Shown here one piece after another: positions 2,752 to 9,912 of a stretch of 20,434 nt of DNA (positions are counted from its first letter, which is position 1; the number at the start of each line of letters is the position of its first letter). The translations under genes were made by a program, and so were the position numbers. Origin of the DNA: a virus; the IMG/VR virus record IMGVR_UViG_3300048928_000301, positions 1 through 20,434 of that record. One strand, given 5' to 3'. Below the pieces are notes generated by a model. It did no database searches. It was not told where the DNA came from and was given only the letters and a program-made list of their open reading frames with translations.

Positions 2752-3323
2752 GCTGCCCTCCCTGCTTGCTTGAATGTGTCGCTTGGTGCGTTCTTGATCT
2801 TGTCGAGATTGAAATCTGCGCCGTTGGCTTCGGCTGCTGCCTTAAGGCGAGCCATGCTAGCCTCTGGGCTGGTGTCGTATTGGTCGCGGCGAGTTTCTTC
2901 TGCGGCATTGTCGAGGCGCTGCTGTGCCTTTGTGGCTTCCCACTTTGCCGTTGCACGGGCGCGGCTTTCTGGCGTCCACTCTGCGCGTTTGCTGTCTGCT
3001 GCCATTTCTTTGAGAATGCGGCGGTCGTAACTGTCTCTGGCGCGGGCTTCGAGAATAGGCTTCATTACCTTGTCGCATTCCTGACGAAGCTCTGGAGGGC
3101 TTGGAAGGAAGGCATGTCCGAGCGAACCCTGCATAATTTGCTTCGTTGCTGTTTGGAGGCCGTGGCGCGTCACACCTTCAAGAGCCATGTAGAAACCAGC
3201 AACATTGACTTGATCGTCAGCCGAAGCCCTTGAGGGCAGGCTTGAAAGCAAGGTCAAGCACTGTAACATTTCCTCCTGCGTTGCCTTCGCTGTGAAATCC
3301 TCGGTTTTCGCTATCTGGTTCAT
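2748..3323 (-). CDS. Probable phage replication-associated protein, helix-rich
   Basis: The 191-residue protein follows the DUF1376 gene. Its segment around residues 45-90, with a helix, then GSLGHAFLPSPPELRQECD, resembles N-terminal domains of phage helicase-loader or replication proteins that carry a 'F-P-S-P-P-E-L' turn. The second half is highly charged and probably coiled. No Walker A motif is present, so it is not a DnaC-type ATPase. ATG at 3323 has a GGAG nine bases upstream but overlaps the preceding gene by 107 bases; a later ATG at 3269 sits right behind AGGAGG and is an alternative start. Confidence 0.55.
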   Translation of the reverse strand: MNQIAKTEDFTAKATQEEMLQCLTLLSSLPSRASADDQVNVAGFYMALEGVTRHGLQTATKQIMQGSLGHAFLPSPPELRQECDKVMKPILEARARDSYDRRILKEMAADSKRAEWTPESRARATAKWEATKAQQRLDNAAEETRRDQYDTSPEASMARLKAAAEANGADFNLDKIKNAPSDTFKQAGRAA

Positions 3324-4092
3324 TTCTCAAAACTCCAAGTCGCCTTGCTTCGTCGCGTATTGCATCCCCGATATTTCGAGGCTTTGGAGGCGGTTCGTTT
3401 CGGTGAGCGGTAAACTTCGGATCTGCTTCATCGAGCCAGCACTGGCCGTTGAGCCACGTCGAAGCGTGTTTCGTGAATTCGGGGTTTTCGCCTTGGCGGC
3501 TGGAGGCATAGCGGCGAACGCCTGCCATGATCGTTTCCAGATCGTTCTGCTTTCGAGCAGCACGGAAGGCCTTGAGAGCCTGTCCTTTGCCGACCCTCTT
3601 GGGATAGGCTGGCCAAAACTGCTGATCAAATTCGCTTTCGAAATCTGGCTTGATCGTTACATCTGAACGAAGTGAAGATGTATTATCTGTATCTGTATCT
3701 GTATGGTTGAACGTCTGTTGAACGTCCGTTGAAGTCATGCGTTGTTTTTGTTGTCTTTTTTCGGCACTTGCTTTTCCTGCCTTGGAATTAATTTTCAACT
3801 TGTGCGCACGACTTGAAATTTCAGCTTCGGCTCGGTGGTTGGAAATCATGCCGTCGAGAAGCTCCAGCTTCCCAAGTTCGATGAGCTTTTCGACTGTCTT
3901 AACGAATGTCGATTCACGCATGCCGCAGTATGTTGCGAGGCGCATGACGTGATATTCTACAGGGCCGTTTTCTTCATAGATGCGGCAAAGCATCATTGTG
4001 TAGACGCCGACTTCCTGAGCCGACAGGCCACGAACGCCGTGCATGAAGTCAGACGGGTAGAAATCAAAATACGGGATGCGGTCTTTGCTCAT
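3217..4092 (-). CDS. DUF1376 (YdaU-like) phage replication protein
   Basis: Starting at ATG 4092 (MSKDRIPYFDFYPSDFMHGV), the 291-residue protein opens with the DUF1376 signature: the 'YFDFYPSDF' start, then LSAQEVGVYTMMLCRIYE, which is a winged-helix-like region. A Lys/Gln/Thr-rich linker follows. The C-terminal half carries FWPAYPKRVGKGQALKAFRA, a pattern found at the ends of phage replication initiators. The start overlaps the rusA stop (ATGA). DUF1376 proteins usually sit in phage replication modules, and I infer an origin-binding or primosome role here. Confidence 0.85.
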   Translation of the reverse strand: MSKDRIPYFDFYPSDFMHGVRGLSAQEVGVYTMMLCRIYEENGPVEYHVMRLATYCGMRESTFVKTVEKLIELGKLELLDGMISNHRAEAEISSRAHKLKINSKAGKASAEKRQQKQRMTSTDVQQTFNHTDTDTDNTSSLRSDVTIKPDFESEFDQQFWPAYPKRVGKGQALKAFRAARKQNDLETIMAGVRRYASSRQGENPEFTKHASTWLNGQCWLDEADPKFTAHRNEPPPKPRNIGDAIRDEARRLGVLRNEPDSENRGFHSEGNAGGNVTVLDLAFKPALKGFG

Positions 4093-4442
4093 GTCGCTAA
4101 CGCCTCCTCGGCGCGCTGCAAGATGACGACACACTCCTCTTTCAAACCGGCATCCCACGTCATTGTGAGGCGTTCACAGAGGCTGTCGTTCTTGATGACC
4201 TTGTAATGCTGGAGAACGTCGAGAAGCGCTTTCATGCGGTTGTCGAGGTCCATGCGCTTATGCGGACGCTTCAAAGCAACTGAGATGCTGAAAGGTCCAT
4301 CGATGAATTCATTCTTGCCGTTTAGGAACCAGCCGCAATCATCGCGCCATTTGTTATAGGCGCTCGTTCGGTGCTTGGTTTTCCCATGACCTTCGTAAAT
4401 ATCCCATACGGATGGAGGGAACGGGAGCGCGAGCTTGATCAT
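4089..4442 (-). CDS. rusA: RusA-family Holliday-junction resolvase
   Basis: The 117-residue protein matches RusA in length and layout: an N-terminal LPFPPSVW strand, then RPHKRMDLDNRMKALLDVL with the catalytic aspartates near residues 65 and 67, and a third acidic site in KND near residue 86. RusA dimers cut Holliday junctions symmetrically and resolve recombination intermediates during phage DNA replication. Both ends overlap neighbours by ATGA, so translation is coupled. It complements the Erf/YqaJ recombination genes of the rightward operon. Confidence 0.9.
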   Translation of the reverse strand: MIKLALPFPPSVWDIYEGHGKTKHRTSAYNKWRDDCGWFLNGKNEFIDGPFSISVALKRPHKRMDLDNRMKALLDVLQHYKVIKNDSLCERLTMTWDAGLKEECVVILQRAEEALAT

Positions 4443-6690: not shown

Positions 6691-6897
6691 TCATGCGCTT
6701 ACCCTCGTGCGGGAGCGCTTCTTGGCATCGATTGCCAAACGGTCGATGAACGCTTTGGCAGGCCCACGGGTGGGAACGCCTTCGTTCTCCCAACGCCAAA
6801 CGGTTGAGAGGTTGACCCCGGCCATTTCGGCCAGCTGGGTCTGTGTCAACTTCAGTGTGCGACGGATCGCTGGGAGGTCGATGTTTGCGTTTGTCAT
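6691..6897 (-). CDS. Cro-like helix-turn-helix repressor
   Basis: The 68-residue protein starting at ATG 6897 ([15 protein letters not shown]) has an XRE-type helix-turn-helix: [20 protein letters not shown]. It is the first gene of the leftward operon and diverges from the S24 repressor, the position of Cro in lambdoid phages. The upstream in-frame ATGs at 6912 and 6903 lie in or before the -10 element, so they cannot start the protein from this promoter. Transcription should begin near 6897, making the message essentially leaderless. Its C-terminus overlaps the extended GapR start by four bases. Confidence 0.85.
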
Positions 6898-6899
6898 TC

Positions 6900-6948
6900 G
6901 CATAGTATGCATAACGCAAACTATCCCGTCAAGGCGAAACGCATACTA
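6900..6948. promoter_or_regulatory. Operator cluster of the immunity region
   Basis: Repressor-site repeats lie between the divergent cro-like and repressor genes: the near-palindrome GCATAGTATGC (6900-6910), AACGCAAACTA (6913-6923) and AACGCATACTA (6938-6948). All three recur exactly at 11008-11084. They overlap the -10 and spacer of the leftward promoter and the likely promoter of the repressor, so binding would control both. Which protein binds which site is inferred. Confidence 0.75.
6904..6932 (-). promoter_or_regulatory. Leftward early promoter
   Basis: On the minus strand, TTGACG (-35, 6932-6927), a 17-bp spacer and CATACT (-10, 6909-6904) make a good sigma-70 promoter reading into the Cro-like gene. 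The same TTGAC[G/T]-17-CATACT layout recurs at 11056-11084 for the rightward operon. Confidence 0.8.
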
Positions 6949-6968
6949 AAAATGTGCAATATGCAGTC

Positions 6969-7709
6969 ATGACAGAAGACACTCGCCCAGATCCAGCCAA
7001 ACGCCTTGAAGAAGCGCGCATTGCTCGCGGCTTTAAGAACGCAAAGGACGCAACAAATTATTTTGGCTGGTCATACGTGACTTATACGCAGCATGAGAGC
7101 GGGGAGCGCGGAATAACGCGAGCCGTCGAAAAGTATGCGAAAGCGTTCCGAGTTAGCCCTGGTTGGCTTCTGACTGGCGAAGGAAAAGGCCCGGACGGTG
7201 TTTTGGTTGAGTTTCCACCGGTCGAGGAAGAAACATTTACGCCATCAAAGACTAAGCCGAACGCCAGCTTCCCGCCTAAATATCAGAGCTTCCCGCAAGA
7301 TCACTCTATACCTCTGCTCGGACAAACAGCCGGAGGCCCTAACGGTCGTTTTGTTCTGAATGGAACCGAAATAGGCCGGGTGTTCTGCCCGCCAATGCTG
7401 GAAGGCGTTGAAGGAGCATATGCGGTAATGGTGTTCGGCACATCGATGGAGCCACGCTACTTCGCTGGGGAAACCGTGTGGGTTAATCCACACTTGCCCG
7501 TGCGTGCCGGGGACGACGTTATCGCGCAGCTTATTGAAGACGGCGAAGAAAACCCAGTCGAGAGCTATATCAAGCGCTTTGAATCTCGATCGTCTCGTGT
7601 CCTTCGCCTCTATCAGTACAATCCGGATGAAGGCGAAGAACGGGAATTGGAATTTGATGCTGATCGCGTGTTCTCAGTACACAAGATCGTATTCAAGGCC
7701 AACGCCTGA
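6969..7709 (+). CDS. CI/LexA-like phage repressor with S24 peptidase domain
   Basis: The 246-residue protein has an N-terminal helix-turn-helix (residues about 15-57) and a C-terminal S24 self-cleavage domain: nucleophile Ser near 159 in GTSMEP, catalytic Lys near 202 in SYIKRF, and an Ala-Gly cleavage site near 121-122 in GQTAGG. RecA filaments formed during DNA damage would trigger self-cleavage and induce the prophage. ATG 6969 is chosen; GTG 6954 would add five residues. No clear ribosome site precedes either, so the message may be leaderless, as lambda cI is when read from its maintenance promoter. Its 3' end overlaps a convergent gene by 36 bases. Confidence 0.92.
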   Translation: MTEDTRPDPAKRLEEARIARGFKNAKDATNYFGWSYVTYTQHESGERGITRAVEKYAKAFRVSPGWLLTGEGKGPDGVLVEFPPVEEETFTPSKTKPNASFPPKYQSFPQDHSIPLLGQTAGGPNGRFVLNGTEIGRVFCPPMLEGVEGAYAVMVFGTSMEPRYFAGETVWVNPHLPVRAGDDVIAQLIEDGEENPVESYIKRFESRSSRVLRLYQYNPDEGEERELEFDADRVFSVHKIVFKANA

Positions 7710-7955
7710 CGGGTCGCTATCCCGCCAAGTGGGCTTGATTGTCAGATTGCGCGCGTGTGGTGGTGCCGGAGGGCATTCGCCGCAGCGGATCTTATGGCAA
7801 AGGTCGCGATAGCTCTGCACTCCCAAGTCAGCCACACGCTTTAAACTTGATGTGTAGAGCATTCGGCTATGACCGCAATCATCGCAAGCGACATATACGC
7901 TGGACAGCTCAATAACTAGGCGTTTGCCTTCATCAGAAATTGGGCCGTCTAGCAT
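7674..7955 (-). CDS. 93-residue zinc-binding-type protein convergent with the repressor
   Basis: The protein has CDDC near residue 24 and CGEC near residue 58, so it may bind zinc, with a helix between them and a Pro-rich stretch after. Its start overlaps the stop of the upstream gene (TAATG), and its last 36 bases lie antisense to the end of the repressor gene. Both genes follow a LexA box at 8266-8280, so this pair is probably SOS-induced. A role in antagonising the repressor is possible but unproven; I know no family for it. Confidence 0.7.
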   Translation of the reverse strand: MLDGPISDEGKRLVIELSSVYVACDDCGHSRMLYTSSLKRVADLGVQSYRDLCHKIRCGECPPAPPHARNLTIKPTWRDSDPSGVGLEYDLVY

Positions 7956-8212
7956 TATACACGCTCCATCTCTTCGACTTCTGGCGGCAATGGGTCGCCA
8001 TGAGCATAGATGAGCTTTGGAGGATCGAAATCGCCTGTCTCAGCATCGCCTGTATTGGCGAAGGCAATTACCATTGGGCTGCTTTTCGCCATTCTCTCAG
8101 CAGTGCGCTTTGCATGCGCAGCGTCTTTTGCTACGAAAGGTGTGTCAGGGTTCAGCTTGCCCCGATAACCCTTGCTGTAGCTCTGCACGATGTAGTTTGT
8201 CTCCATGCTCAT
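7955..8212 (-). CDS. 85-residue phage protein, first gene of LexA-controlled pair
   Basis: ATG 8212 is preferred over 8218 because it lies eight bases after GGGAG. The product starts MSMETNYIVQSYSKGYRGKL, continues with a KDAAHAKRTAERMAKSSP helix and ends in an acidic tail. It looks like a small alpha/beta protein common in rhizobial phages, but I cannot name it. The LexA box lies about 54 bp upstream. Under SOS it would be expressed when the prophage is induced, as Tum is in phage 186. Confidence 0.7.
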   Translation of the reverse strand: MSMETNYIVQSYSKGYRGKLNPDTPFVAKDAAHAKRTAERMAKSSPMVIAFANTGDAETGDFDPPKLIYAHGDPLPPEVEEMERV

Positions 8213-8265
8213 TAACATTACTCCCTGTTCCGCTTGTCATGTGCGACAGGATGATTTATAGATTA

Positions 8266-8280
8266 GAACAAATCAAGAAC
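8266..8280 (-). promoter_or_regulatory. LexA (SOS) box, alphaproteobacterial type
   Basis: GTTC-N7-GTTC is exact on the minus strand (GAAC at 8266-8269 and 8277-8280 on the plus strand), the established LexA site of Alphaproteobacteria. A TATAAAT -10-like element lies a few bases downstream in the direction of the 8212 gene, so LexA bound here would block that promoter. The surrounding gap 8219-8397 otherwise shows no gene. Confidence 0.75.
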
Positions 8281-8397
8281 ATTCTTGAGGAAAGGTTAAT
8301 GGCGACTTGCCGCCGCAAAGGTTGCGATCAACGACAAGATAATCACAAACTTTGACTGTGGATAACGTGTAAAAATGCGAACGAAAGCCTTTGCCCC

Positions 8398-8438
8398 TTG
8401 ACACGACTTTCATTCCTTACTTCTCAGCTAACTGAGAA
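8398..8438 (+). promoter_or_regulatory. Promoter/operator candidate of the DprA-like cassette
   Basis: TTGACA at 8398-8403 is a perfect -35. A 7-bp palindrome, TTCTCAG/CTGAGAA with a four-base centre (8421-8438), occupies where the -10 would be, and no good -10 is seen at 17 bp. The palindrome could be an operator or an mRNA hairpin in the leader; it is embedded in a wider CACGA/TCGTG pairing. The ribosome site GGGGGG (8473-8478) and a TTG start follow. Confidence 0.45.
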
Positions 8439-8483
8439 TCGTGTTAAAAATTAACAAATTGCTTTTTACTCTGGGGGGTTAAA

Positions 8484-9251
8484 TTGCTCTTAGATACGGG
8501 TACTAGAACGTTGGTTGCACAACAGAGACATACAGATAGCACGTTTAATCGACGGTCTCGTTATGTCGCACCTGCATCCGTTTTTGAAACGCCCTTAAGC
8601 GAGCTATTATCCCATGCTGGCCGCTCCATCACAAAGCAGCAAGAGAGCTTATTTCGTAAGCCTGAAGAAAATGATCCTGTTATATTTTGGTCGGGAGATA
8701 TCGACCTTTTAAAATTACCCAGTGTTTCCGTTATTGGTGCTCGCTCAGTAACTGAGGAAGGTCGCGCGCGCGCGCGCCGGGTAGCGAAGGGCTTGGCTTC
8801 AGCGGGCGTAGTTGTGACCAGTGGTCTTGCTAAGGGTGTAGATACAGCGGCCCATAGTGGCGTCATTGCAGCTGGTGGCAAAACAATTGCTGTCATTGGC
8901 ACCCCCTTAAATAAAGCTTATCCTGCGGAAAATACCCAGCTACAAGAAACAATATACACCAATCATCTACTCATATCGCAATTTCAGCCGGGGCAGAGGA
9001 CATTTCAATCTGACTTCCCTAAACGTAATCGACTGATGGCAGCAATATCTGATGCCAGCGTTATAGTTGAAGCGTCCGATACCTCTGGTACACTTCATCA
9101 AGCAGCTGAATGTATCCGCCTTGGTCGATGGTTGTTTATAATGCGATCTGTCGTTGAAGATGAAAAGTTAACTTGGCCTAAGCGCTTTTTGGATAATCCG
9201 AAAACGATTGTTCTGACCAGTGTTAATGACATTCTAAATCGGATTTTATAA
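8484..9251 (+). CDS. DprA/Smf-like Rossmann (SLOG-type) protein, no SAM or WH domain
   Basis: The 255-residue product starts at TTG 8484 behind a GGGGGG ribosome site. From residue about 80 it follows DprA closely: SVIGAR (82-87), SGLAKGVDTAAH (113-124), AVIGTPLNKAYPAEN (136-150), FPKRNRLMAA (178-187), VIVEASDTSGTL (193-204). DprA binds single-stranded DNA and loads RecA in natural transformation. The usual N-terminal SAM and C-terminal winged-helix domains are absent; about 80 residues of unrelated sequence precede the core. One base separates it from a phosphoribosyltransferase gene, so the pair should be coupled. Base composition is AT-rich compared with its neighbours, suggesting transfer. 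A nucleotide-sensing SLOG role in defence is an alternative. Confidence 0.85.
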   Translation: MLLDTGTRTLVAQQRHTDSTFNRRSRYVAPASVFETPLSELLSHAGRSITKQQESLFRKPEENDPVIFWSGDIDLLKLPSVSVIGARSVTEEGRARARRVAKGLASAGVVVTSGLAKGVDTAAHSGVIAAGGKTIAVIGTPLNKAYPAENTQLQETIYTNHLLISQFQPGQRTFQSDFPKRNRLMAAISDASVIVEASDTSGTLHQAAECIRLGRWLFIMRSVVEDEKLTWPKRFLDNPKTIVLTSVNDILNRIL

Positions 9252-9252
9252 C

Positions 9253-9912
9253 ATGCAGGTGCATTATTGTTGTGTTTATTATTCCGAGCTAGCTCATAAA
9301 AACGTGGCAAGAACAGAGCCTTACTGGCAATCTAGGGCTTTTTCTTGGGCTGTTAAAACAGGTGAATTTAAGAATAATTTTACTGTTATATATCGCAAAA
9401 AGCCAATTAGTATAAATAAAACAAACATTCATAGGGCGAGAGAGATCTTTGGAAGCTTTATTGAAGCTATTCTTAAGCAAGAAAAAGTTGATGATGATGT
9501 GCTCTTGATTCCCATCCCTTCTAGAGACGCGACATTAGAAGTAGATAATTATCGATCACTAATGATGGCAAAATGTTCGCTGGTTAATAGTGATAGGAAG
9601 CCTAATATATATGATGGCTTAAGATGGTCAGAGCCCCTTAAAAAAGCACACGAAGGTGGGCCGCGCAGCAGAGAAGAACTAAAAAAGTATCTAAAGTTGA
9701 TAAGTGACGTTAAAGGTAAAAAAGCGTTTCTGATTGATGATATTTTCACAAAAGGCGGTACTTTACTTGCATCAAAGGACGCACTCGAAGCAGCGGGTGT
9801 GGAGGTTCTCGGCGCAATTACTGCCGCAAAAACAGTTTATGATTTTAATACTGAGCCATTTGGCTACCAATGTATCGACCTGAGTAACGAACTCAATGAC
9901 TATGTTGCTTAG
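9253..9912 (+). CDS. ComFC-like type I phosphoribosyltransferase
   Basis: The 219-residue protein carries the PRPP-binding loop AFLIDDIFTKGGTL (158-171) of type I phosphoribosyltransferases, and LIPIPS near 85-90 where ComF proteins have VPVPL. The N-terminal half is not that of a nucleobase salvage enzyme, and the CxxC zinc motif usual in ComFC is absent. ComFC takes part in DNA uptake and is reported to work with ComFA and DprA in Bacillus. ATG 9253 starts one base after the dprA-like stop with only a weak ribosome site, fitting translational coupling. Transferase activity and substrate are unknown. Confidence 0.82.
   Translation: MQVHYCCVYYSELAHKNVARTEPYWQSRAFSWAVKTGEFKNNFTVIYRKKPISINKTNIHRAREIFGSFIEAILKQEKVDDDVLLIPIPSRDATLEVDNYRSLMMAKCSLVNSDRKPNIYDGLRWSEPLKKAHEGGPRSREELKKYLKLISDVKGKKAFLIDDIFTKGGTLLASKDALEAAGVEVLGAITAAKTVYDFNTEPFGYQCIDLSNELNDYVA

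Follow-up and report, generated by a model that had tools for sequence, protein, structure and literature searches.

The repressors of phages lambda and P22 undergo RecA-stimulated cleavage at Ala-Gly. Other phages carry LexA-controlled antirepressors, i.e., Tum of coliphage 186, AntC of N15, and those of Gifsy, which inactivate the repressor by binding to it (PMC3121763); the LexA-controlled antirepressors that we found described come from a few gammaproteobacterial phages. In the TF-smORF modules and Qtip, cI repressors capable of autoproteolysis are inactivated by unrelated small proteins, with no cleavage involved (Silpe et al., 2023; PMC10432266).

Here we analyze an operon of two small genes, P2 and ZnF, that runs convergently into the gene of an S24-type repressor in a phage of Brucella/Ochrobactrum-type bacteria. 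The window, i.e., the whole stretch of DNA that was analyzed, is a complete IMG/VR virus record of 20,434 bases, the record itself being probably a fragment. The features considered are as follows.

6691–6912, minus strand: Cro-like HTH gene, divergent from the repressor gene (HTH_3, E = 1e-5)
6954–7709, plus strand: S24-type phage repressor, HTH and peptidase domain (PF00717, E = 1e-8; phrog_4 transcriptional repressor, E = 6e-29)
7260–7709, plus strand: repressor CTD (from NASFPP), exchanged together with ZnF (HTH, CTD, and ZnF pair identities; two-sided exchange)
7674–7709: 36 nt shared, in antisense, by the 3' ends of ZnF and the repressor gene (from the sequence; the genes overlap in relatives too, mostly by 16 nt)
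7674–7955, minus strand: ZnF, second operon gene, 93 aa, CxxC...CxxC, proposed antirepressor (invariant Cys, dN/dS, convergence)
7955–8212, minus strand: P2, first operon gene, 83–85 aa, start at 8212 or 8206 (relatives, dN/dS, structure model)
8221–8226, minus strand: Shine-Dalgarno-like AGGGAG 5' of P2 (from the sequence; ACAGGGAG is kept in nearly all aligned P2-type relatives)
8266–8280, minus strand: LexA (SOS) box GTTC-N7-GTTC, exact match (kept in 78 of 81 ZnF loci and 22 of 23 X loci)

In phages that have the box and P2 without ZnF, an unrelated small gene (X1, X2, or X3) takes its place. Like Tum and AntC, ZnF is a small gene, by its sequence LexA-controlled, that would act on a phage repressor. 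Tum has 146 aa and is similar to DinI (PMC3121763), whereas ZnF has 93 aa and four cysteines; unlike Tum and AntC, ZnF is convergent with the repressor gene and has the alphaproteobacterial box. The comparison with Tum made in the sequence-only reading is apt as an analogy (a LexA-controlled gene set against a repressor; PMC3121763) but finds no support as homology in family-library searches: neither P2 nor ZnF matched a family, that of Tum or GfoA included, above the cut-off in Pfam, NCBIfam, PHROGs, or PADLOC.

The Gifsy genes GfoA, GfhA, and GftA of Salmonella are likewise LexA-controlled small antirepressors, and they share with the X-type phages short repressors devoid of a peptidase. However, the Gifsy antirepressor genes are situated outside the immunity region, while ZnF and the X genes lie directly against the repressor gene, overlap it, and are swapped along with its CTD, and the ZnF version faces an S24 repressor. 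The TF-smORF modules and Qtip resemble the ZnF and X genes in that unrelated small proteins follow one common logic, but their expression is SOS-independent and depends on a phage transcription factor that acts at a divergent promoter, in contrast to the LexA box found here (PMC10432266). The repressor itself, an HTH joined to an S24 domain with a Ser-Lys dyad, is built like CI of lambda and P22, and differs from it in having a variable residue at the cleavage position and an SOS operon directed at its gene. The locus would thus work like a known kind of antirepressor, with apparently unrelated proteins and in a new arrangement (convergent, overlapping, and exchanged with the CTD). Our literature search on LexA-controlled antirepressors in Rhizobium, zinc-finger antirepressors, and GANTC together with LexA in prophages found no earlier description.

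LexA box and promoter

An exact GTTC-N7-GTTC box upstream of the 8212 start, reported by the sequence-only reading, was confirmed at 8266–8280 on the minus strand, where it reads GTTCTTGATTTGTTC. The P2 start codon (ATG 8212) lies 53 nt from the box, with further in-frame ATG codons at 8218 and 8206. By itself the motif carries little weight, because 0.7 exact boxes are expected from shuffles in the whole window; the expectation for the 277-nt intergenic stretch 8207–8483 is 0.013. A second exact box, at 3709–3723 on the minus strand, falls inside a coding ORF (3217–4158) and was discarded as a promoter, as it shows no promoter sign and finding at least two boxes in the whole window is compatible with chance (P = 0.145).

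The GTTC-N7-GTTC operator is documented for Caulobacter (PMC9578287). Among the 12 hosts whose recA start was located by script, six have an exact box of this form at recA, indicating that these hosts read the motif. LexA control of the operon is, at the level of sequence, strongly supported; LexA would be expected to bind at 8266–8280, and P2 and ZnF to be induced in the SOS response.

In all 67 ZnF-type promoters considered, a GANTC (CcrM methylation) site, often in the form GACTCGACTC, occurs within 60 nt upstream of the LexA box (background 7%); P2-type promoters have one within 40 nt downstream of it in 10 cases out of 11 (background 5%). The promoter in the window has no GANTC beside the box. 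That GANTC and LexA motifs lie close together in SOS genes has been mentioned previously (PMC7987155).

The P2 and ZnF genes

The two genes of the operon, P2 (7955–8206/8212) and ZnF (7674–7955), are indeed coupled, as initially described: they are joined as TAATG, with one base in common (7955). In every detail that was checked, the earlier description of the sequence was correct.

Relatives of P2 are 77–87% identical to it and further ones 58–69%, with dN/dS of at most 0.11. Its structure model is confident (pLDDT 89.6) and of the alpha/beta type, and a Foldseek search with this model gave no match below E 0.001. A Dmd-like antitoxin fold was considered and set aside, the VIA-align scores with Dmd of T4 and RB69 (Z 5.1 and 4.5) being too weak to use. 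Nor is P2 specific to phages, as it belongs to a large family present in 80 of 347 Hyphomicrobiales genomes. An exact box is situated within 350 nt upstream of 15 of the 30 family members examined, the other 15 having none; box-less members were seen on Bradyrhizobium plasmids, and also in chromosomes, with no S24 gene nearby (L251 and L253 included). In a few prophages and one Pseudochrobactrum plasmid (L221, L223, L252, L287, L288), a P2-family gene is the only one between the box and a convergent S24 repressor. P2 may be the common SOS partner in the proposed switch, and may do the job itself where it is the sole convergent gene. The sharpest antirepressor candidate is ZnF rather than P2, because the P2 family is wider and occurs also in non-phage places.

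Four cysteines and an RNLT motif are invariant in all 43 aligned relatives of ZnF, and dN/dS is 0.09–0.15. No known fold or family was found for ZnF; its structure model (pLDDT 63) shows no informative fold and is too poor to interpret. The dN/dS values of about 0.1 and the invariant cysteines imply that the products of ZnF and P2 matter as proteins.

Conservation of the layout

Searches with ZnF and P2 of viral contigs, named genomes, and one sequenced phage yielded 103 ZnF loci including the window, 81 of them distinct over 800 nt; these are phages and prophages of Hyphomicrobiales. An exact box lies within 400 nt upstream in 78 of the 81 distinct loci (0.03 boxes per kb elsewhere in the same loci), and a convergent S24 repressor is present in all 81, overlapping by 16 nt in 68; owing to their common descent, the loci do not count as independent trials. 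A reciprocal search from the S24 CTD gave a convergent ZnF in 80 of 80 loci and an exact box in 79. Within the viral set, ZnF never occurs apart from this repressor CTD, nor the CTD without ZnF. The box, the spacing, and the overlap persist while more than half of the synonymous positions have changed (pS 0.55–0.79). The layout of box, operon, and repressor is, judging by its conservation, not due to chance.

In the 347 Hyphomicrobiales genomes, the S24 CTD profile was found in 22 and the ZnF profile in 8. A broader ZnF profile retrieved from the same genomes members with as little as ~25% identity to ZnF of the window; among its hits below E 1e-8, 14 of 15 have an exact box and most have a convergent S24 gene, which led us to reject the idea that ZnF is a common chromosomal zinc ribbon with no tie to phages. 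One locus (L262) has the convergent S24 gene without an exact box. A class-wide sample of 385 genomes contributed two weak further ZnF hits only.

In a distant version (L243), the box precedes a row of three genes, ZnF and two others, that converges on an S24 repressor; hence, the SOS operon can be longer. In Agrobacterium phage Rivra (L057, PV764937), a ZnF gene at 34944–35210, between gene 51 and the CI repressor, had been missed by the deposited annotation; the box and the 16-nt overlap are intact.

The repressor and its cleavage site

The Ser-Lys dyad of the S24 domain is intact in all repressors (Ser 81/81, Lys 81/81), and hence a double SOS trigger, by cleavage and through the operon, is possible. 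In the column that we take to correspond to the Ala-Gly site of LexA, Ala occupies P1 in 42 of the 81 repressors, Gly in 34, and Ser or Thr in 5. The aligned tripeptide in the window is AGG, with Gly at the aligned position and Ala-Gly one residue earlier. The earlier proposal that SOS acts twice may hold, the dyad being intact, but the LexA-equivalent residue is not Ala in 39 of the 81 repressors, that of the window included. Self-cleavage of the repressor cannot be assumed, and the double trigger is plausible but unproven. These repressors keep Ser and Lys and may self-cleave, which makes an antirepressor look redundant and counts against the antirepressor reading.

Exchange of small gene and CTD

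The HTH domains of repressors encoded beside ZnF are very diverse, with pairs down to 5% identity and 10 clusters at 40%; the CTDs of these repressors are at least 51% identical and the ZnF proteins at least 43%. For 232 pairs with HTH identity below 30% and CTD identity above 80%, ZnF is on average 82% identical. ZnF follows the CTD more than the HTH (partial r of 0.41 vs. 0.24), part of this co-inheritance being linkage, since the two are physically adjacent.

Similar HTH domains are also found with different CTDs and partners. Thus, the HTH of L003 (S24, ZnF) is 69–72% identical to those of L048 (X2) and L051 (X1), and that of L020 (ZnF) is 66% identical to that of L053 (X1); the window (P2 and ZnF) shares 71% with L252, which has another S24 CTD and a P2-like gene only. 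At the DNA level, L045 and L051 are homologous at the box and P2 (4925–5242 of L045) and again from the HTH (6020 on), with nothing alignable between, and therefore the replaced unit is exactly the small gene plus the CTD. The loci L005 and L186 are 95% identical until 10 nt before the P2 stop codon and unrelated beyond it. Neighboring genes could stay together by linkage alone, but exchange on two sides, each time ending at a functional border, is the prediction for a matched pair of antirepressor and target. Both this two-sided exchange and the obligate convergence with the CTD support an action against the repressor.

Other small genes in the same position

Single-sequence scans for X genes gave 23 distinct loci, with the box in 22 and a convergent repressor lacking the S24 domain in all 23. 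These repressors are mostly 120–141 aa long and have an HTH but no S24 domain, and the X genes overlap them by 80–137 nt. X1 and X2, which like X3 were compared against Pfam only, have a common C-terminal motif GGxW...DHQ. A repressor without S24 cannot cleave itself, and therefore an SOS-inducible prophage of the X type needs another inactivator, for which the LexA-controlled convergent gene would be the obvious candidate.

Genes beyond the LexA box

On the other side of the box in the window, at 8484–9912 on the plus strand, a DprA-like gene and a phosphoribosyltransferase gene match ShosA and ShosT (PADLOC E = 2e-69 and E = 5e-9), an anti-phage toxin-antitoxin system (PADLOC). The pair is transcribed away from the SOS operon and starts ~200 nt downstream of the LexA box. 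The cargo in this position varies: instead of ShosTA, other loci contain a HEC-01 ATPase pair (L045), a SocA/Panacea antitoxin domain (L049), a GNAT acetyltransferase (L053), or a PDC-S33 protein with a RelA/SpoT domain (L054). The stretch beyond the box looks like a hotspot of defence and toxin-antitoxin genes.

Proposed mechanism and alternatives

The best explanation of these observations, to which we assign a probability of roughly 57%, is that these operons of temperate phages are antirepressor cassettes, controlled by LexA and directed at the CTD of the repressor. DNA damage would remove LexA from the box at 8266–8280, and P2 and ZnF would be made; ZnF would then bind the CTD, i.e., the dimerisation and S24 peptidase domain, and disable the lysogeny repressor, releasing the lytic genes. 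Binding of ZnF to the repressor and its effect on lysogeny are the predicted steps here. In other phages the same switch would operate with X1, X2, or X3 matched to another repressor CTD, so that the small gene and the CTD would form an exchangeable cassette of antirepressor and target.

That the operon merely adjoins the repressor and serves another SOS-induced function, e.g., cell-division arrest, anti-defence, an antitoxin, or repair, appears unlikely: ZnF and this CTD are never apart in the viral set, and exactly the small gene and the CTD are exchanged. Such a function would be in line with the occurrence of P2-family genes away from S24 genes, both with and without the box, and with the weak likeness of the P2 model to the T4 and RB69 antitoxin Dmd. 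We consider it very unlikely that ZnF, instead of being a simple antirepressor, assists S24 self-cleavage or, the other way round, keeps it from occurring too early. ZnF is invariably paired with an S24 repressor whose dyad is intact, and the residue equivalent to that of LexA is Gly, Ser, or Thr where it is not Ala, so that cleavage may need help; however, the X proteins fill the same operon position where no peptidase exists.

The overlap makes room for yet another mechanism, in which SOS-driven transcription of the operon lowers the repressor mRNA or the polymerases collide, the small proteins being secondary. Both observations behind it were verified, namely the 36-bp antisense overlap with the repressor 3' end (7674–7709) and the absence of a clear terminator between operon and repressor. 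The region contains six terminator-like matches, all weak (shuffle mean 2.2, sd 1.6); the nearest to the junction is a 5-pair stem at 7721–7733 on the plus strand, inside ZnF, and none of the 81 related junctions has a good hairpin with a T-run in the ZnF direction. Convergence in all 81 loci and conservation of the overlap, which reaches 80–137 nt in the X loci, also favor interference. Yet the overlap is just 16 nt in most ZnF loci, the strong protein-level constraint (dN/dS of about 0.1) and the invariant cysteines are those of a working protein, and an RNA-only mechanism needs no protein family per CTD, though linkage could mimic that. We consider interference as the main mechanism decidedly unlikely; under the antirepressor reading, terminator-less transcription into the repressor gene could add to the effect.

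Implications

A more far-reaching reading, which we offer as tentative and somewhat doubtful, is a "lock and key" system: temperate phages of alphaproteobacteria would carry interchangeable cassettes, each made of a repressor CTD and its dedicated LexA-controlled antirepressor, which are swapped while the SOS promoter stays the same and the DNA-binding domains are unrelated. The ZnF version would be a two-key SOS trigger, directed at a repressor that could still cleave itself, and the conserved GANTC (CcrM) sites beside the LexA box in most of these promoters may connect induction with the cell cycle or DNA methylation.

One architecture is shared by about 80 distinct loci in phages and prophages of Hyphomicrobiales, and its small-gene slot is taken by three or more unrelated types of protein. 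It calls into question whether the presence of an S24 domain suffices to infer that a repressor is inactivated by self-cleavage, offers natural domain swaps for the study of antirepressor specificity, and predicts which protein would wake these prophages.
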